Made by a program: the position numbers and the translations under genes. The notes below the pieces were generated by a model. It worked only from the letters and a program-made list of their open reading frames with translations, made no database searches and was not told where the DNA came from. From the NCBI GenBank assembly GCA_016432725.1, contig JACJDG010000003.1, positions 1 to 64,000 on the forward strand: a stretch of 64,000 nt of DNA, in the 5' to 3' direction. The stretch is from Streptomyces sp. DHE7-1. GTDB lineage: Bacteria; Actinomycetota; Actinomycetes; Streptomycetales; Streptomycetaceae. This document shows positions 1-9,975 of the stretch, in pieces (the stretch's first letter is position 1; each line of letters begins with the position of its first letter).

Positions 1-940
1 GGGCCGGGCGTGTCGGCGAGGTCGCGAGGATGCGGGCCGGAGTCGGCCGATACGGCCTTCCAGAGCCTTCTCCGTCAGCCCTACCTCCGCGGCGGCTTGC
101 TGCTGGGTGTAACCCTGGGCGCGCAGGGCCAGTCCCTTGCGGACCTTGGTATCAGTGATGTACGGGAGGATGCGCTTGATTTCTTCGTGGGTGGCTGCGG
201 CGTAGAAGGGGTCGGTGGCGCGCTGGTCAGGGATTTCCCGCGCTGCCCTCTCATTGTCGGCTGTGGGAGATCCAGCTCAGCCTGCCCCATCTGCCGGGCT
301 CGGAACCAACGGGTGTAGACGGTGCGGAAGGAGCGGATGGAGGCACCGACGAAGTAGGTGCTCAAGCTGGCTCCGCCGCTGGGCGCCCACTTGCCGCGGA
401 CAAGGCCGTGCTCGTGGAAGAGGTCCAGGCCGGCGATCACGGTGTCGGTGGCAACTTCGGCGCGGTCGTCCCGCGTTCCAGTCAGGCGTGGTCATCCGAG
501 CAGGCACAGGGCGGCCGGCCTGCCGTGCGTGCTCAAAGATTTCGCCGCTCGCGTTCCACTTACTGACGGTGCGCCAGCCGTAGTTCATCAGGCGGGCCGT
601 CACTTTTGGTATCGGGGCCCTGGAAGTCGTCCGCGCGCAGGATGTCGACGATACGAGCGTCGGCCTGCAGCCGTGCCGCATGCGTGACGCCGTTCTCCGA
701 GGTGGGAACCGGCAAGGGTGTGCTCCAGGCTCAGCAACTCCTCGAGCTGAGCTCCGTAAGCTCCAGGTCCTCCTGCAGCAGTGCTTGGGGAGCACGCCCC
801 TGGCACGTCTCATCCGGCACACTCGCTCCCTTGCGTCCCTGCCGCCCATATGGGCCCCTTTCCAGCCTGACGCGGATGTCATAGGCATCACCGCCGCTCT
901 CCCCTCGCCCCCACCAGAAGAATTTATGTGACTCAGGCCA
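1..940 (-). pseudogene. Sigma-70-like HTH protein, broken and running off the window
   Basis: Pieces of one protein appear in successive frames of the minus strand. From about 940 down they read a segment with DIRVRLERGPYGRQG, then TARLMNYGWRTVSKW, then GLDLFHEHGLVRGKWAP and TYFVGASIRSFRTVYTRW, and finally YTQQQAAAEVGLTEKALEGR at about 60-110. The last piece resembles a region-4-like helix-turn-helix, and the whole resembles sigma-factor-like proteins common in Streptomyces (family assignment by recollection). At least four frame changes are needed. The reading frame is still open at base 1, so the C-terminus lies outside. It could be a decayed gene or an intact one with several base-call errors. 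Confidence 0.5.
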
Positions 941-1040
941 CATGTGATCGGGCGAGGGGACAGGTACCGCCGTCCGCTAAAGCATCCACACCAGCCACCC
1001 GGCAGCGGGTGAAATCAGCATCATGGAAACGGAGTTCACA

Positions 1041-1234
1041 GTGAGTCAGCACACCAGAGGCAACCAACCACTGCTCGGCCTGCGCAGCGCGATGGTGCTG
1101 CTGCTCGGCGTCCTCACCGGTGTCGGAGCAGGCGTCCTCACCTACCTGTCCGAGCACTCCCTGCCCGCCACGGCACTCGCCGCCGCGCCGGCTTCGGTGC
1201 GGGCGTGCTGTTCTTCCAGGCCATCATCGGCTGA
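1041..1234 (+). CDS. Small one- or two-helix membrane protein (single frameshift)
   Basis: A GTG at 1041 follows ACGGAG with a 6-base spacer, preferred over the ATG at 1023. The product starts MSQHTRGNQPLLGLRSAM, continues with a hydrophobic helix (VLLLGVLTGVGAGVLTYL) and after one missing base near 1190 ends in GFGAGVLFFQAIIG at the TGA 1232-1234. Two hydrophobic stretches suggest a small inner-membrane protein of about 64 residues. The function is unknown. It is followed at once by a strong hairpin (1252-1305), so it is probably a monocistronic unit. The frame moves in the direction expected for one lost base. Confidence 0.55.
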
Positions 1235-1251
1235 ACACCCCCACAGGCCCC

Positions 1252-1305
1252 GGGGGGTCTTGGGGGCAGCAACCATCACCATGGTTGCTGCCCCCAAGAC
1301 CCCCC
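1252..1305 (+). terminator. Perfect 25-bp hairpin with CACC loop
   Basis: Bases 1252-1276 are the exact reverse complement of 1281-1305, separated by the loop CACC. The arm begins GGGGGGTCTTGGGGGC. It lies 18 bases after the small membrane gene and between two convergent units, which fits a bidirectional terminator. The length and perfection are greater than usual for a simple terminator. Confidence 0.6.
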
Positions 1306-1619
1306 GTTGCATTTACCGCACGCCTCAAGCCGACTCGTGCCGGGCCGACCTGCCTCGGGTCCAGCGGGGCTCCACCCCAGAGTGCGACGCGCTCTTTCCT
1401 CTCGCTCCTGCGAGTGCCGGCGAGGCTGGTTCCCACGGCATGCCCAGAGCGGCGAGAAGGTCGTGGGCGAGGCCGGTCTCACTGGTGGTGCCCGGGCCGG
1501 GTGCAGCTGAACGGTGGATGGTGGGCGGTAAGGGCGGTGAGCGCATGGACCGCGTCGTCGCCTGGGTCGAGGACCACAGTGACGGACGGCGGTAGCACGG
1601 CAAGCGGCAGTGCTGGGGA

Positions 1620-2360
1620 TCAGCCAAGGCGGCTGAAGGCCCAGCGCAGCAGTTCCTGGTCCACGCGGGGGCGGCCGGTGCGTGCCAGTGCGGTGCGGGT
1701 GTGGGCGGTCAGCTGGCCCAGGCGCGGAAGTTGCCGTGCGTGGCGTGGCTGTCGGCGAACGTGATGTCGTCGGGGTCGGCGTCAGCCCAGACCGGGTGGA
1801 ACAGCGGGATGACCTCGCGGACCTCGTCAGGGGTGAGGCGGGTGAACTGCTGCCAGATGAAGATGCGCGAGGAGAGCATCGGTTCGCGGCGCAGCACGGT
1901 GTGGCAGCCCGCGCCACCGACGAAGATGATCGCGAGCTGGTGGAGGGTTCGTCCCAGAGGTAGCGGAAGTATTCGAACGCCTCCCCGTTGAGCCACTGGC
2001 CTCATCCACCAGGAAGGTGCGGGGGCGCTCAGCCAGGGCCGTCTTCAGCAGGCGGTCGAACTCGCTGGGATGGCGCGGTGGTTCGCCGGCCAGATCGAGG
2101 GCGGTGAACAGTTCGTAGCGCACCGCGCGGGCGGTGGGCCGGGCCCGGAAGGTGATCTTGCGGACGTCCTCGCCGGGTTCGAGTGCGCGCAGGCAGGTGT
2201 TGACGGCGAGGGTCTTGCCGAAGCCGGCGCCGCCGTGGATGCACATCATGGCGCGGGCGGCGACGGTGTCGGTGATGTTCTCCCGTGCCGTCAGCAGCGC
2301 GCGGGTGGTGACGACGGAGGCGTCGGGCAGGTCGACGTACTGGTAGGTGGCCGCGGTCAC
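1620..2360 (-). CDS. TniB/TnsC-like AAA+ transposition ATPase (two single-base shifts)
   Basis: The GTG start at 2360 overlaps the stop of the transposase (GTGA), so translation is probably coupled. The product of about 247 residues has a Walker A GGAGFGKT near residue 45, a Walker B RTFLVDEAQ near residue 115, then IIFVGGAGCHTVLRREP (sensor region) and a C-terminal tail DQELLRWAFSRLG. TniB/TnsC/MuB ATPases form filaments on target DNA and deliver it to the DDE transposase. Frame is lost near 2007 and near 1948; one extra C in the run at each place restores it. Together with the next two genes it forms a Tn5053/Tn7-like transposition module. Confidence 0.75.
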
Positions 2361-4176
2361 GAGGCGTCTCCTGCAGGTCGGGAGTCGGACTCCGGCGCAA
2401 CGTCCACCGACGGGTCGGCTGGAGTGGAGGCGGGCGGGGCGGCGCTGTGCCAGCAGCGAGGGCGGCGGGTACGCCAGTGCGCCGGAGGCGGGGCGGGCGG
2501 GATCAGGTCAGGCAGTGCCAGTCGTACGACGTCGGTGTAGTCGACGGCGGCGAGTTCACGCTCGGCCTGGGCGGCCGTGACGGCTCCCAGCCGCTGGGCG
2601 GGCTCCGCGCTGGTGGTGGGGGCGAATCGCTGGCGCCGCAGGCGCTCGGCGGCCTTCGCGTCGGAGCGCAGGCGCCGAGCGCGCTCCGCACGTGCCTCGC
2701 GCAGGGCCTGCAGTTGCTCGGGGGTGGCCGCGTCCGCGAGGTGCGCCGGGCCGAGGTGGCGGCCACGGGCGTCGCAGACCTCGATCTCGTGATCGTGGTG
2801 CGGCATATAGCGCACGCGGACCTGGCGGCCGGCCTGACCGGTCATCCACGCGGCGACGTAGGTGCGGCCGCGCCAGCTCACGCCGTGGCGGGTCAGCTTC
2901 CGGACCGGCCGTCGTCCTCGAGGGTGAAGGCCCACAGATCGGCGGCGGGAATGTCGGTGACAGGGGTCGGATCGGCCTGCCACGCCTGAAGCGGCGTACG
3001 GCCCGACAGGGCTTTCGGACGGTGCGTGGTGTTCCACCAGTTCGTCCACGCCAGGACCTCTGCGGTGAAGTCCTTGAACGACAGGGCGGACGCCGCCCCT
3101 GCGGTACGTTGGCGCCGCTCCGAGCGGGGCCCGGTGGGCCCGGCGGTGTAGCCGGGCAGGGCGGCGAACAGCATCCGGTCCGCGGCCCGGTTGAGGCTTT
3201 CCACCGTGCCCTTCAGATGCGGGCTGTAGGCGGGCAGGTCTTTGACCGTCACGCCCATCGCGCCGAGTGCGGTGGTGACGGTGGCCGACAGGAAGTCCTT
3301 GCCCCGGTCCATCCTCACCAGCTCCGGCACTCCCCGGCCGGGCCGTAGGGCTCGTCCCGCACCACTGCGGCGCGCAAGGCTGCCAGTACCGACGCGCGGG
3401 AGGGATGGCCCGGGGTGACAGCGGTACCGGTGATGACCTTGGTGGCAGTGTCGATGAACCAGGTGATCCACGGGCGCACCAGATCGCCGTCGGCGTCGAC
3501 CAGCAGCGGGGCCTGGACGTGGTCGGTCTCCCAGGCGTAGTTGCGCCATGACGGTGGCCGCTTGCCGAACACGTCATGGGCGCGTGCTGCCTCCGGTCCG
3601 ATGGCGAGACCGGCGCGCTCCCCCGCCGTCAGGTCGCGGCGCAGCGCGCGCAGGAACGTCGACAGGGACGGGACCGAATCCAGCAGCGGCACCTGCGACA
3701 GGGCTGCCCCGCCCGGAACAGCCACCGGGTCCGGCGGGAGGGCACGGTAGCGCCGGTCGTTTGCGCTGGTGGCCCCCCGGCCTCCGCTGCGGCGCGCTCT
3801 ATGAGCTGGCGGTGCACTGCGGAGGCGTTGCCGTGCCAGTACGCCAGCAGCACCCGGATCTCCGCGGTGATCTCGAACCGGCCGGTGCGGCGGGCTCCGG
3901 GGTGCGCAGCCGCCGCCGGGCTCTGGGATGCCTCGGCCAGCCACCGCCACACCGTGCGCTCCGATACCCCCAGACACTCCCCGCCAGCCGCACGTGCTGC
4001 CGCGAAAGACCGCCCCGGGCCCGCAGCGCCAGCAGACGACGCACCGCAGGCGCCCGCAGCGCAACCAGCGACTGCTTTCCAAGCACACCGGCCGGATCCC
4101 CCGGCGGTGGCAGCCGCTGCCCTCCCCCGTCAAGGCCACGGCCCTCGTTGATGTCCTGCGCTCTGCTGTCCGTCAT
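2357..4176 (-). CDS. TniA/TnsB-like DDE transposase (frameshifted)
   Basis: The ATG at 4176 overlaps the stop of the upstream ATPase (ATGA). The protein of about 606 residues has an N-terminal helix-turn-helix with RTVWRWLAEA, a central integrase core and a C-terminal Mu-type beta-barrel region (SWRGRTYVAAWM, VRVRYMPHHDHEIEV). The catalytic residues are visible as ETDHVQ (D about 217), RMDRGKDF (D about 289) and GTVESLNR (E about 325), a DD36E spacing. GTVESLNRAADRM and WNTTHRPKALSGRTP are typical for this family. Frame changes near 3335, 2900 and in the N-terminal part look like single-base losses. It should catalyse strand transfer for the element. Confidence 0.8.
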
Positions 4177-5621
4177 CGCGCCGTTTCTTCTCCTCGCCGA
4201 ACGGAGTGAGGCTCTCTGCCGTCGGAACCGGTGTGCGCCGGGCACGTGAGAGGGGCCGGGCCGTCACGAGTACGGGCCAAGCCGGGCGCATGCCCGGTCG
4301 ATCGCGTCTCGCTCCACTCCCGCACCGGGGTCGCGGCCCCGGCGGCGCAGACATGCGAGGTGATCTTCGCCCAGGTACGGAAGTTGCCGCGGGCGGTCTG
4401 CTCATCCACCCGCACCAGGTCGGCCGGATCAGCGTCCTCCCACACCGGGTGGAACAGACCCAACGTCCGCGCACATCCTCCGTGTCGAGGCGGCTGACCT
4501 GGTGCCAGGTCAGGACGCGGGAACGCATCGCCGCTGCCCGGGCCAGTGCCCGCTCGCTGCCCGCCCCGCACAGCACCAGGGCAGCCGTGCAACCGGGCGA
4601 GTCCCACAGCTGCCGCAAGTAGTCCAGCACCGGCGGCGACAAGCGCTGCGCGTCGTCGAGGAACAGCACACCCGGCTCGGTCAGCGCCTCCGCCAGTGCT
4701 TGGTCGGCCGGTCCGGCACGGTGGGTCAGGGACCCCGACGGCAGCCCCAGTGCCTCGCACAACGCGGCCCGCACCTGCGGCAACCCGGGCCTGACCCCCA
4801 CCACCGCGCGCCACACCGGCACCCGGCCGGGCAGCAGATGCAGAGCCTGCTCGACCGCGACCGTCTTTCCAGCCCCGTGTCCCCGTACACGCAGCCGATC
4901 CCCCGCGCGGCGACCGTGTGCCCCACCGCCTCCACCACGGCGGCCACCTGCCGCGTGGACACCAGCCGCGCCCCCGGCGCGTACAGGCGCACCCCACCGG
5001 ACACCCGGGGACGCGCAGCAGTCTTCAACGCGCCGGCCCGTTCCTCACCACCCGTACCGGGTGGCATGGCGTCCGGGCCGTCCACGACCGGCGGACCGTC
5101 CGCACCTTCTGCGAAACCGAGTTCGGCCAGTGCCCGGTCATACCGGCTCGGCTCCACCCGGCCCGACGCCGGGCGGGCGATCTGAAGCGCCCGGCCCGCC
5201 CTCAGTTCGTCCTTGATCGCGCGGTGCAGCGTCGCCAACGACGGCACAAACTCCGCTCCCCAGTGGTCCAGCACTCCCTCGTCCTGCGCCCGGACCATCC
5301 TGCGGCGCAGCTCGGCGACGTTCCCGCCCACCTGGGTGAGTACCTCCCACAAGGCGTCGCCCACCGTGAACCCGCCCTGCCGCGGCCGGGCCTCCACCCG
5401 CCCTCGCGTCCCTCGGCCAGCCACCGCCATACCGTCCGCTCCGTCACCCCCGCCAGCCCGGCCGCGATCCGCACGTGCAACGACGACAGGCCACCCTCAC
5501 CCCGGTCCACCGCCAGCAGCCGCCGTACCACCACACCCCGCGCCAACGGCACACCCCCGGCCGGCACAGCCCCAGCCGACCCCGCCCCGGGCTCACCCGC
5601 CGAACCCGCTTGAACCGTCAT
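4173..5621 (-). CDS. HTH-AAA+ fusion: transposase-like DNA-binding region joined to a TniB-like ATPase
   Basis: The ATG at 5621 opens the operon. Residues about 35-150 resemble the N-terminus of the adjacent transposase: GLSSLHVRIAAGLAGVTERT here against GLSRQHVRLA..GVSERTVWRWLAEA there, followed in both by a segment ending PSLATLHRAIKDELRAGRA or PSLSTFLRALRRDLTAGER. Residues about 240 onward are an AAA+ ATPase with Walker A GDTGAGKT (after restoring one G near 4880), Walker B GVLFLDDAQR near residue 320, then VLCGAGSERALARAAAMRSR. The tail LGLFHPVWEDADPADLVRVD matches IPLFHPVWADADPDDITFAD of the downstream TniB, so the two ATPases are paralogues. A role in target or end selection is an inference. 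Confidence 0.7.
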
Positions 5622-5673
5622 ACGGGCCAGCCCACCCGACCCGCCGACCCCTCACATAGGAACAGCGAAACCC

Positions 5674-6132
5674 ATGACAGCCAGCAACCAACCTGCTAGC
5701 CACACCGCAACAGCCGCTTGGTCACCCCATGACAGCAGCCACAACCCCGCCCCACACCCGCTACCAGGACATCCACTCCGCGATTCCGCTGACGCCCACC
5801 CGCTGCCACCCCAACGCCCAATCACAATCGAAGTAGAACTGGTGTCGCAGGGGTGGCGAACCCTGGCCCGCCCTGTGCGCCCCGGCTCCTTCGCCCGCGG
5901 ATGCTTGGCACGCGGGGACCGCAGGCCGCGCGGCAGCTCGGGGAGCAGTCGGGTCGTCAGCCCCAGTCATGCGCCCAGGCTCTTCTCCCGCGTCCGCCGC
6001 GAGCTGGTCGCCTCCGGGTGGCTGGAGGAGAACCCGATGCCGCATATCGACAACGTCCGGTTCTACCGGCTCACCAGCAAGGCCGACCCGAACGCCGGCG
6101 CCGAGCTCCTGCAGATCCGCCCCACCGCGTAA
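5674..6132 (+). CDS. Hypothetical protein with a winged-helix-like C-terminus
   Basis: The frame is open for 152 codons. Only the C-terminal part, with LFSRVRRELVASGWLEE and HIDNVRFYRLTSKAD, looks like a real protein; it resembles the recognition and wing part of small DNA-binding proteins. The first 90 residues are Pro/Arg-rich and may be read in the wrong frame, since another frame gives TRYQDIHSAIPLTPTRCHPN over 5751-5830. It starts just upstream of and divergent from the transposition operon, where a regulator of that operon would be expected. The family is not recognised. Confidence 0.3.
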   Translation: MTASNQPASHTATAAWSPHDSSHNPAPHPLPGHPLRDSADAHPLPPQRPITIEVELVSQGWRTLARPVRPGSFARGCLARGDRRPRGSSGSSRVVSPSHAPRLFSRVRRELVASGWLEENPMPHIDNVRFYRLTSKADPNAGAELLQIRPTA

Positions 6133-6360
6133 CCCCCGCCCTCCGCCCGTAAGAGGTCGTCTCACTTGGTGAGTCGGGCGGGCCACGGCCAGCGGAAGCG
6201 TGGCAGTAGCAGCCGTGGCGCGGCTCACGGGAGCTTTACTGCGAATTGGTTGCAGTTACGCAGCATGGGCGCAAAGGTGGATCGCCGATCGCAGCAAGAA
6301 GAAGATGACCGACCTCCTTCAGCGGAGGGCAGGGGCCGCCACCCGTGCGGCCTGCGGGTT

Positions 6361-6639
6361 TCAGCGTTTGGTGAGAGGGCCGGCGTGCAGCGCGTTCCGG
6401 AGGCGCCGGTATTCGTCCTCGTCGATCTCCCCGCGGGCCAGCCGCTCACCGAGGATGTCCTCTGCCGAGGGCGGGGCCGGGGTGTAGGTGGGTGTGTGTT
6501 CCTGGGGAGGTCGGTTCAGGGCGCGGAAGAGCAGCACCCCGAGGGTGATGATCAGCGCCCAGAACAGGATCATGCCGGCCGACATTGCGAACCAGCCCCA
6601 GCCGCTGACGTCGTGGTCGTACCAGAACATCATTGCCAC
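6361..6639 (-). CDS. SHOCT-domain small membrane protein
   Basis: The 92-residue product starts MAMMFWYDHDVSGWGWFAM, has one membrane helix (GMILFWALIITLGVLLFRAL, residues about 20-40), a proline-rich linker and a C-terminal SHOCT motif (SAEDILGERLARGEIDEDEY, then RRLRNAL). SHOCT segments are short oligomerisation modules of bacterial membrane proteins; a biochemical role is not known for this group. It is divergent from the copper ATPase and such genes are often neighbours of copper export genes in actinomycetes. The frame is intact. Expression may be controlled from the shared 200-bp intergenic region with its two palindromes. Confidence 0.8.
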   Translation of the reverse strand: MAMMFWYDHDVSGWGWFAMSAGMILFWALIITLGVLLFRALNRPPQEHTPTYTPAPPSAEDILGERLARGEIDEDEYRRLRNALHAGPLTKR

Positions 6640-6663
6640 TCACCTGCTTCGGCCTTGTTCTCT

Positions 6664-6690
6664 GGTCGGATGCGGAAGCCGCATCCGACC
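6664..6690. promoter_or_regulatory. 12-bp inverted repeat between divergent SHOCT and copper ATPase genes
   Basis: GGTCGGATGCGG and CCGCATCCGACC are separated by AAG. It lies 25 bases before the SHOCT start. Because both flanking genes point away, a terminator role is unlikely; an operator or a 5' leader hairpin is more plausible. Confidence 0.45.
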
Positions 6691-6771
6691 GCTCCTTGCC
6701 TCACCTGCATCGTCCCGCTGTCGGGAGTGGCGGTCTGGGGCCGGATGGTCCCTGACCGGTGGGCCGGCCCG

Positions 6772-6788
6772 CCCCTACCAGGTAGGGG
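6772..6788. promoter_or_regulatory. 17-bp palindrome in front of the copper ATPase operon
   Basis: The sequence CCCCTACCAGGTAGGGG is a perfect 8-1-8 inverted repeat 51 bases upstream of the ATPase start. The operon encodes its own CsoR-type copper sensor, so this is a candidate operator. The half-sites differ in order from the TACCC/GGGTA sites at 10022 and 13798. Confidence 0.5.
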
Positions 6789-6839
6789 TAGCCGGGCGCA
6801 GGCTGGAAAAGGGGAACCGACACGGGAGGTGAGCAGCCC

Positions 6840-9644
<2,805 letters not shown>

Positions 9645-9648
<4 letters not shown>

Positions 9649-9975
9649 CCGCGACTGCAGCCCCACCCCAGACGCCCGCCAGCCGCACCCAGTCACACCC
9701 GGTTACGCCGGCCGCAAACCCGACCACCTGGCCCGTCTGAACAAGATCGAGGGCCAGATCCGCGGCATCTCCCGGATGATCACCGACGACCGCTACTGCA
9801 TCGACGTCCTCACCCAGATCACCGCCGCCAGCCGCGCCCTGCAGGAAGTCGCCCTCAGCCTCCTCGACGACCACGTGCGCGGCTGCGTCACCCGGGCCGC
9901 CCGCACCGACTCCGCCAGGCCGAGGAGAAGTTCGTGGAACTCAACGAGACCCTGCGCCGCGCCCTGCGCCTGTAG
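9645..9975 (+). CDS. csoR: CsoR/FrmR-family copper-sensing repressor (two single-base shifts)
   Basis: The ATG at 9645 overlaps the ATPase stop (ATGA), so the sensor is coupled to the pump it probably controls. The product of about 110 residues contains the family core [20 protein letters not shown], a first ligand Cys in [10 protein letters not shown], and His and Cys in DDHVRGCV, the C-H-C Cu(I) site of CsoR proteins. The tail is [17 protein letters not shown]. One missing C near 9706 and one near 9916 break the frame. CsoR proteins are all-helical tetramers that leave DNA when Cu(I) binds. Candidate operators lie at 6772, 10022 and 13798. Confidence 0.85.

Follow-up and report, generated by a model that had tools for sequence, protein, structure and literature searches.

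The window, the whole 64,000-nt stretch analysed here, is the first 64 kb of a 7.83-Mb chromosome contig (C1) in the three-contig genome of Streptomyces sp. DHE7-1. Near the start of this contig lies a three-gene transposition operon, which a first-pass annotation correctly placed at about 1620 to 5621. The operon is on the minus strand and is directed at the contig end. That annotation contained neither the transposon end at 5826, nor the orientation of the operon, nor its position at the end of the contig. The features are as follows:

4264..5621, minus strand: gene 1, an HTH-AAA fusion of a transposase-like DNA-binding N-terminus and a MuB/TnsC-like ATPase (tblastn, intact relatives, homology)
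2357..4179, minus strand: gene 2, a TnsB/MuA-like DDE transposase (Mu-transpos_C, 1.5e-11; DDE residues)
1620..2360, minus strand: gene 3, a second AAA+ ATPase, without an HTH, with a GTGA overlap with gene 2 (AAA_22, 4e-7)
5756..5826, minus strand: the only transposon end, on the inner side, running outward from 5826 as 5'-TGTGATTGGGCG... (identity limit of the copies in this genome; 39 of 89 sequences)
1..5826, minus strand: the portion of the element contained in the window contig; the element would extend outward to a telomere, beyond the assembly

The start of gene 1 is uncertain, at 5621 or nearer 5546. In this contig none of the three genes is an unbroken frame: by tblastn, genes 1 and 2 fall into five pieces each and gene 3 into four, with frames changing between pieces. 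Two further copies in the same genome, on contigs C2 and C3, are 99% identical to the window copy, and pairwise comparison of the three gives 46, 23, and 35 indels versus 12, 2, and 9 substitutions. Of the 104 indels, 100 affect a single base, and 92 of these lie next to an identical base. Because the copies differ mostly by such one-base homopolymer indels, the frame breaks in the window genes are likely sequencing errors. The broken frames were left unmended, and the genes were analysed in intact relatives. Frames in the inner flank (window 6840-9648) also break or overlap (7088/7058, 9466/8266), so that indel errors may reach past the element. Beyond gene 3, window 1251-1306 holds an inverted repeat, perfect over 26 bp and with a loop of 4 nt, perhaps a terminator, which is also present in C2 with small differences.

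Conservation of the operon

A genome scan for the fusion confirmed 165 candidate relatives, the best 80 of which were kept and gave 77 loci. Gene 1 is matched in 74 of these 77 loci, and 54 of the 74 carry the fusion as an uninterrupted frame covering at least 90% of the profile. The fusion, for which the first-pass annotation had allowed that it might be an assembly artefact, is confirmed in these relatives. When genome and plasmid loci are combined, all three genes are intact in 44 operons, of which 43 keep the proposed gene order; the exception, L020, has two copies. In the relative L019, for example, a 428-residue HTH-AAA protein is followed by a transposase of 609 residues and an ATPase of 247. 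Of the overlaps described in the first-pass annotation, the one joining genes 2 and 3 (NTGA) recurs in 42 of 43 intact operons, whereas genes 1 and 2 overlap in frame in just 16 of 43; the annotated relative L019 has a gap of 78 nt from the end of gene 1 to the start of gene 2.

Matches at E 1e-20 or better occur in 13 of 296 genomes of the class; three of these lie outside the genus and cover the ATPase part only. The genome scan found the fusion in Kitasatospora and Streptacidiphilus. Within the genus, the fusion profile matches somewhere in 57 of 121 genomes, in many over the ATPase or HTH part alone. Related telomere-proximal operons consist of a transposase and two ATPases without an HTH (G049, G056, G097) or of a transposase and one ATPase (G037, G098). 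Because these operons lack the HTH-ATPase, the fusion is, judged by gene content, an accessory of this branch. A different second operon, which encodes a DDE transposase and an ATPase matching Pfam TniB (2.5e-15), lies beside the telomeric one at L024:5128-8303 and points inward.

The operon proteins

Gene 2 has the Mu transposase C-terminal domain, its profile matches TnsB of ShCAST (1.6e-21), and of 60 relatives 59, 60, and 60 retain the respective DDE residues. As had been supposed, the N-terminus of the fusion is homologous to that of the transposase (39% identical in 117 columns, E 8e-15, or E 1.2e-18 when 37 fusions are used), and its ATPase part is homologous to gene 3 (36% identical in 236 columns, E 2e-38). 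Fusion and transposase share the helix RTVWRWL, with conservation of 95% or more in each across 44 elements. Foldseek searches with the N-terminus alone gave nothing significant; the best match was ShCAST TnsB (E 0.09, and again at 0.17), and others were a CRISPR repeat-binding protein (0.16) and Hsmar1 (0.37). In VIA-align, TnsB was level with homeodomains at a Z of about 5. The homology of this part is argued from sequence. Concerted evolution of the two HTHs was considered and rejected, as their mean identity is about the same within an element (0.487) as between elements (0.477), with no sign of gene conversion. The HTH duplication looks old.

The ATPase part of the fusion matches MuB at 1e-5. 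In the AlphaFold model of the fusion (mean pLDDT 81, linker poor), its closest structural match is to MuB filaments (Z 20.4, rmsd 2.9, 227 residues aligned), followed by ShTnsC (Z 19.7). The Walker A lysine of gene 1 is kept in 60 of 61 sequences and the first Walker B aspartate in all 61; at the second Walker B position 32 sequences have D, 28 have E, and one has K. Gene 3 has weak PDB matches, to DotB (5e-4) and to MuB and TnsC (0.06-0.08). Both proteins have the AAA+ fold with Walker A and B motifs, gene 1 by structure and motifs and gene 3 by sequence and motifs. Together, these results bear out the description of the locus as a Tn7/Mu-like operon with two AAA+ proteins, one of them fused to a transposase-like DNA-binding region, that is conserved in relatives.

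In NCBIfam, the L019 fusion has no family, and genes 2 and 3 have no match above the cut-off. Neither operon ATPase reaches the cut-off for Pfam TniB, whose matches in this genome are at two other loci. TniQ and TnsA, reported as not seen nearby, are likewise not found in the rest of this genome or in G089; in G065 there is one of each, mid-chromosome, and that TniQ is far from the elements. These two relatives in G065 are 3.4 kb apart (G065:C1:5171473-5175481), probably in a separate Tn7-like element.

A single inner end

The identity of the C1 copy with the C2 and C3 copies ends at window 5826. C2 and C3 share an inner flank and C1 has a different one; this genome thus provides two distinct junctions. 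The TGTGA end is matched 40 times in 39 of 89 sequences, always upstream of gene 1 and in one orientation, and three draft contigs (L038, L043, L047) start exactly at it. More distant relatives have related ends that start with TGCGAT, also upstream of gene 1. Gene 1 is no more than 350 nt away from the end in 44 of 49 elements, and in four others about 3 kb of cargo intervenes. At L019:9557-12689 and L020:769-6190, the two are separated by cargo of roughly 3 to 5 kb. Both cargoes include a SecA-annotated protein, the L019 copy of which has no Pfam match at E 0.01, and that of L020 also includes a P-loop NTPase.

With the TGTGA end profile, no inverted partner was found beyond gene 3 in the 89 sequences. 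Other end profiles gave a sole inverted match, in L040, which is upstream of gene 1, and a partial match beyond gene 3 in L078, which runs in the same direction. A permissive search of eleven longer or complete elements found no inverted match better than E 2; such a search is sensitive to close copies alone, as ends altered by 10, 20, 30, and 40% were recovered in 45, 18, 5, and 0 of 50 trials. These comparisons place one specific transposon end on the inner side of the element.

The telomere as outer boundary

Among 72,556 plasmid records, 39 match, all from Streptomyces. Taking the best place in each record, the operon points outward in 37 of the 39, some of which are close relatives of each other. 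The median distance from the operon to the record end is 7.9 kb, and it is below 10 kb in 23 and below 20 kb in 32 of the 39. One exception is a damaged copy on a circular plasmid. The other, NZ_CP114282.1, has two copies facing each other: at about 173290-191025 (L166:13291-31026) there are identical 7,712-bp arms and a 2.3-kb loop, with the TGTGA ends outermost and inverted, and the record's own ends lie amid ordinary genes. The arrangement looks like two plasmid ends that were joined, either in the cell or by assembly. The flanks of this sole two-ended record show no 5-bp duplication.

On draft contigs of at least 50 kb, the operon points toward the nearer contig end in 26 of 32. The proportion is 21 of 22 on contigs of at least 100 kb, and between 50 and 100 kb 5 of 10 point inward. 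One large chromosome copy (L089) points inward.

The genome G065 carries copies at all four of its replicon ends, where the distance from the TGT to the record end is 11,880, 11,931, 11,939, and 11,940 bp. Compared pairwise, these copies have 0 substitutions and 2 to 5 gaps, and no similarity is found between their four inner flanks. The lack of substitutions points to recent spread of the copies in this genome. The terminal 300 nt of G065 fold far better than shuffled sequences (z -5.2, 0/200). Six of eight plasmid record ends fold as hairpin-rich telomeres (z -3.5 to -10.5), and the other two show no telomere-like folding. Together, these data indicate that in G065 and other complete records the second boundary is the telomere. 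At the starts of the window and of C2 no telomere-like folding is seen (z +1.3 and -0.6), which argues that the present assembly stops short of the telomere. Thus, in place of the flanking terminal inverted repeats and 5-bp duplications envisaged by the first-pass annotation, a single end and a telomere were found.

Landing sites

Of 35 readable flanks, 32 are distinct, and these 32 share no target consensus beyond the absence of A at -1 (G in 19 of 32). When window 5700-9700 was compared with 60 relatives and with its own genome in search of an empty site, none of the matches listed was contiguous across 5826, and the best match to a relative among them starts at window 6313.

Similarity to the body of a mapped element is commoner in flanks of 300 nt or more than in stretches 5-6 kb further in (20/65 versus 6/50; Fisher p 0.024, self matches not excluded), and 18 of these 20 flanks match in the same orientation by the best of the matches listed for each. 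Flanks ending in or near an inward-running terminal helicase gene number 10 of 65, versus 2 of 50 controls. In L031, the end lies 70 bp inside the end of another family. Some insertions interrupt the terminal helicase gene belonging to an older end; this and the counts, which are small and partly dependent, suggest that new insertions replace older termini or telomeres. According to PMC8743542, ttrA genes near telomeres run inward, and streptomycete telomere types do not track strain phylogeny, exchange being thought frequent. A telomere-carrying transposon would be a direct mechanism for telomere exchange among streptomycete replicons.

A probable telomeric transposon and its alternatives

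Taken as a whole, including the mechanism and gene roles proposed below, the element is very probably a telomeric transposon of the linear replicons of Streptomyces. Two parts of this reading are established at the level of sequence. In complete records the inner end is specific, the operon is directed toward the replicon end, and the element extends from its inner end across cargo up to the telomere, its other boundary. In addition, one genome has near-identical copies at several of its replicon ends, and their inner flanks differ.

In the proposed mechanism, the DDE transposase would bind the end and bring together two such ends, which a telomere probably bridges, as in two replicon ends or a replicated end; the joined copies in NZ_CP114282.1 hint at such a bridge. 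The transposase would then join the paired ends to new DNA, and the target replicon would lose its old terminus and gain the element together with the element's telomere. Gene 3 may be a MuB/TnsC-like ATPase that presents target DNA. Gene 1, with its transposase-type end-binding HTH, could link the ATPase to the ends or pick subtelomeric targets, and the latter role would stand in for the absent TniQ. When the element moves, linear chromosomes and plasmids seem to acquire new ends.

Within a telomeric element, gene 1 could instead be mainly a regulator, an HTH-ATPase sitting on the end and promoter and restraining the operon or blocking self-insertion. This assignment is possible, though on balance unlikely. 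The recognition helix that gene 1 shares with the transposase, the proximity of the end to gene 1, and the fact that related operons manage without this gene are all consistent with it. However, the kept Walker A and B residues and the close match to MuB and TnsC suggest that gene 1 is a working part, an argument that is itself weakened by the variable second Walker B residue.

More doubtful still is the combined proposal that gene 1 is a self-contained target selector replacing TniQ, which through its transposase-type end-binding domain recognises the ends or subtelomeres of resident telomeric elements and loads the second ATPase at these places, new copies thereby landing in existing termini and replacing their telomeres. 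If true, recognition of self-type DNA would be linked to telomere turnover through the two ATPases. Dual target selection and mixed filaments, both put forward in the first-pass annotation, are speculative further roles for the ATPase pair. In any case, the conserved HTH-AAA fusion makes target choice without TniQ testable.

Two other explanations of the element as a whole are both very improbable. The element could be a conventional two-ended Tn7/Tn5053-like transposon that gathers at tolerant replicon ends, with its second end too diverged to detect; the second-end search does miss ends diverged by more than about 20%, and the damaged copy on a circular plasmid would fit, but a two-ended element would stop short of the telomere, whereas the four G065 copies, whose settings are unrelated, share a sequence that is unbroken between the TGT end and the record end, and the outward orientation in plasmids exceeds what tolerance alone predicts. 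Alternatively, the operon could be a passenger of homologous recombination or telomere exchange between replicon ends, which is thought common in streptomycetes according to PMC8743542 and could explain the identity of the G065 copies by gene conversion; yet recombination alone would leave ragged boundaries, whereas the inner boundary is the same TGTGA end in 32 distinct flanks, and the catalytic residues of the transposase are conserved.

Comparison with known systems

Telomeric transposons reportedly have one specific end and the telomere as second boundary, and reside in linear replicons, with Streptomyces among their hosts. The window element has the same layout of end and telomere and, judged by these features, belongs to this known kind, since telomeric transposons of linear bacterial genomes have already been published (Hsieh et al., Science 387, eadp1973, 2025). 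A sentence citing that paper states that a class without TniQ exists. By title and abstract, none of the papers listed in a literature search describes this operon.

The Tn5053/Tn402 transposons (TniA, TniB, TniQ, TniR) are alike in having a Mu-type DDE transposase followed by an AAA+ ATPase. The operon differs from them in having no Pfam TniB match over cut-off and no TniQ in its own genome, and may also differ in its ends, as no inverted pair was found in a search that sees close copies alone. It resembles Tn7-like elements and the type V-K CAST system (ShCAST) in its TnsB-like transposase and TnsC-like ATPase fold, and differs by its two ATPases, its single end, and the absence of TniQ and TnsA from its own genome.

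Phage Mu provides, in MuB, the best structural match to the fusion ATPase, and gene 2 shares the C-terminal domain of the Mu transposase. MuB likewise has an N-terminal HTH, and thus a DNA-binding ATPase is not unheard of. What sets the present operon apart from Mu is that its HTH is homologous to the one in the transposase of the same element and that it has a second ATPase downstream.
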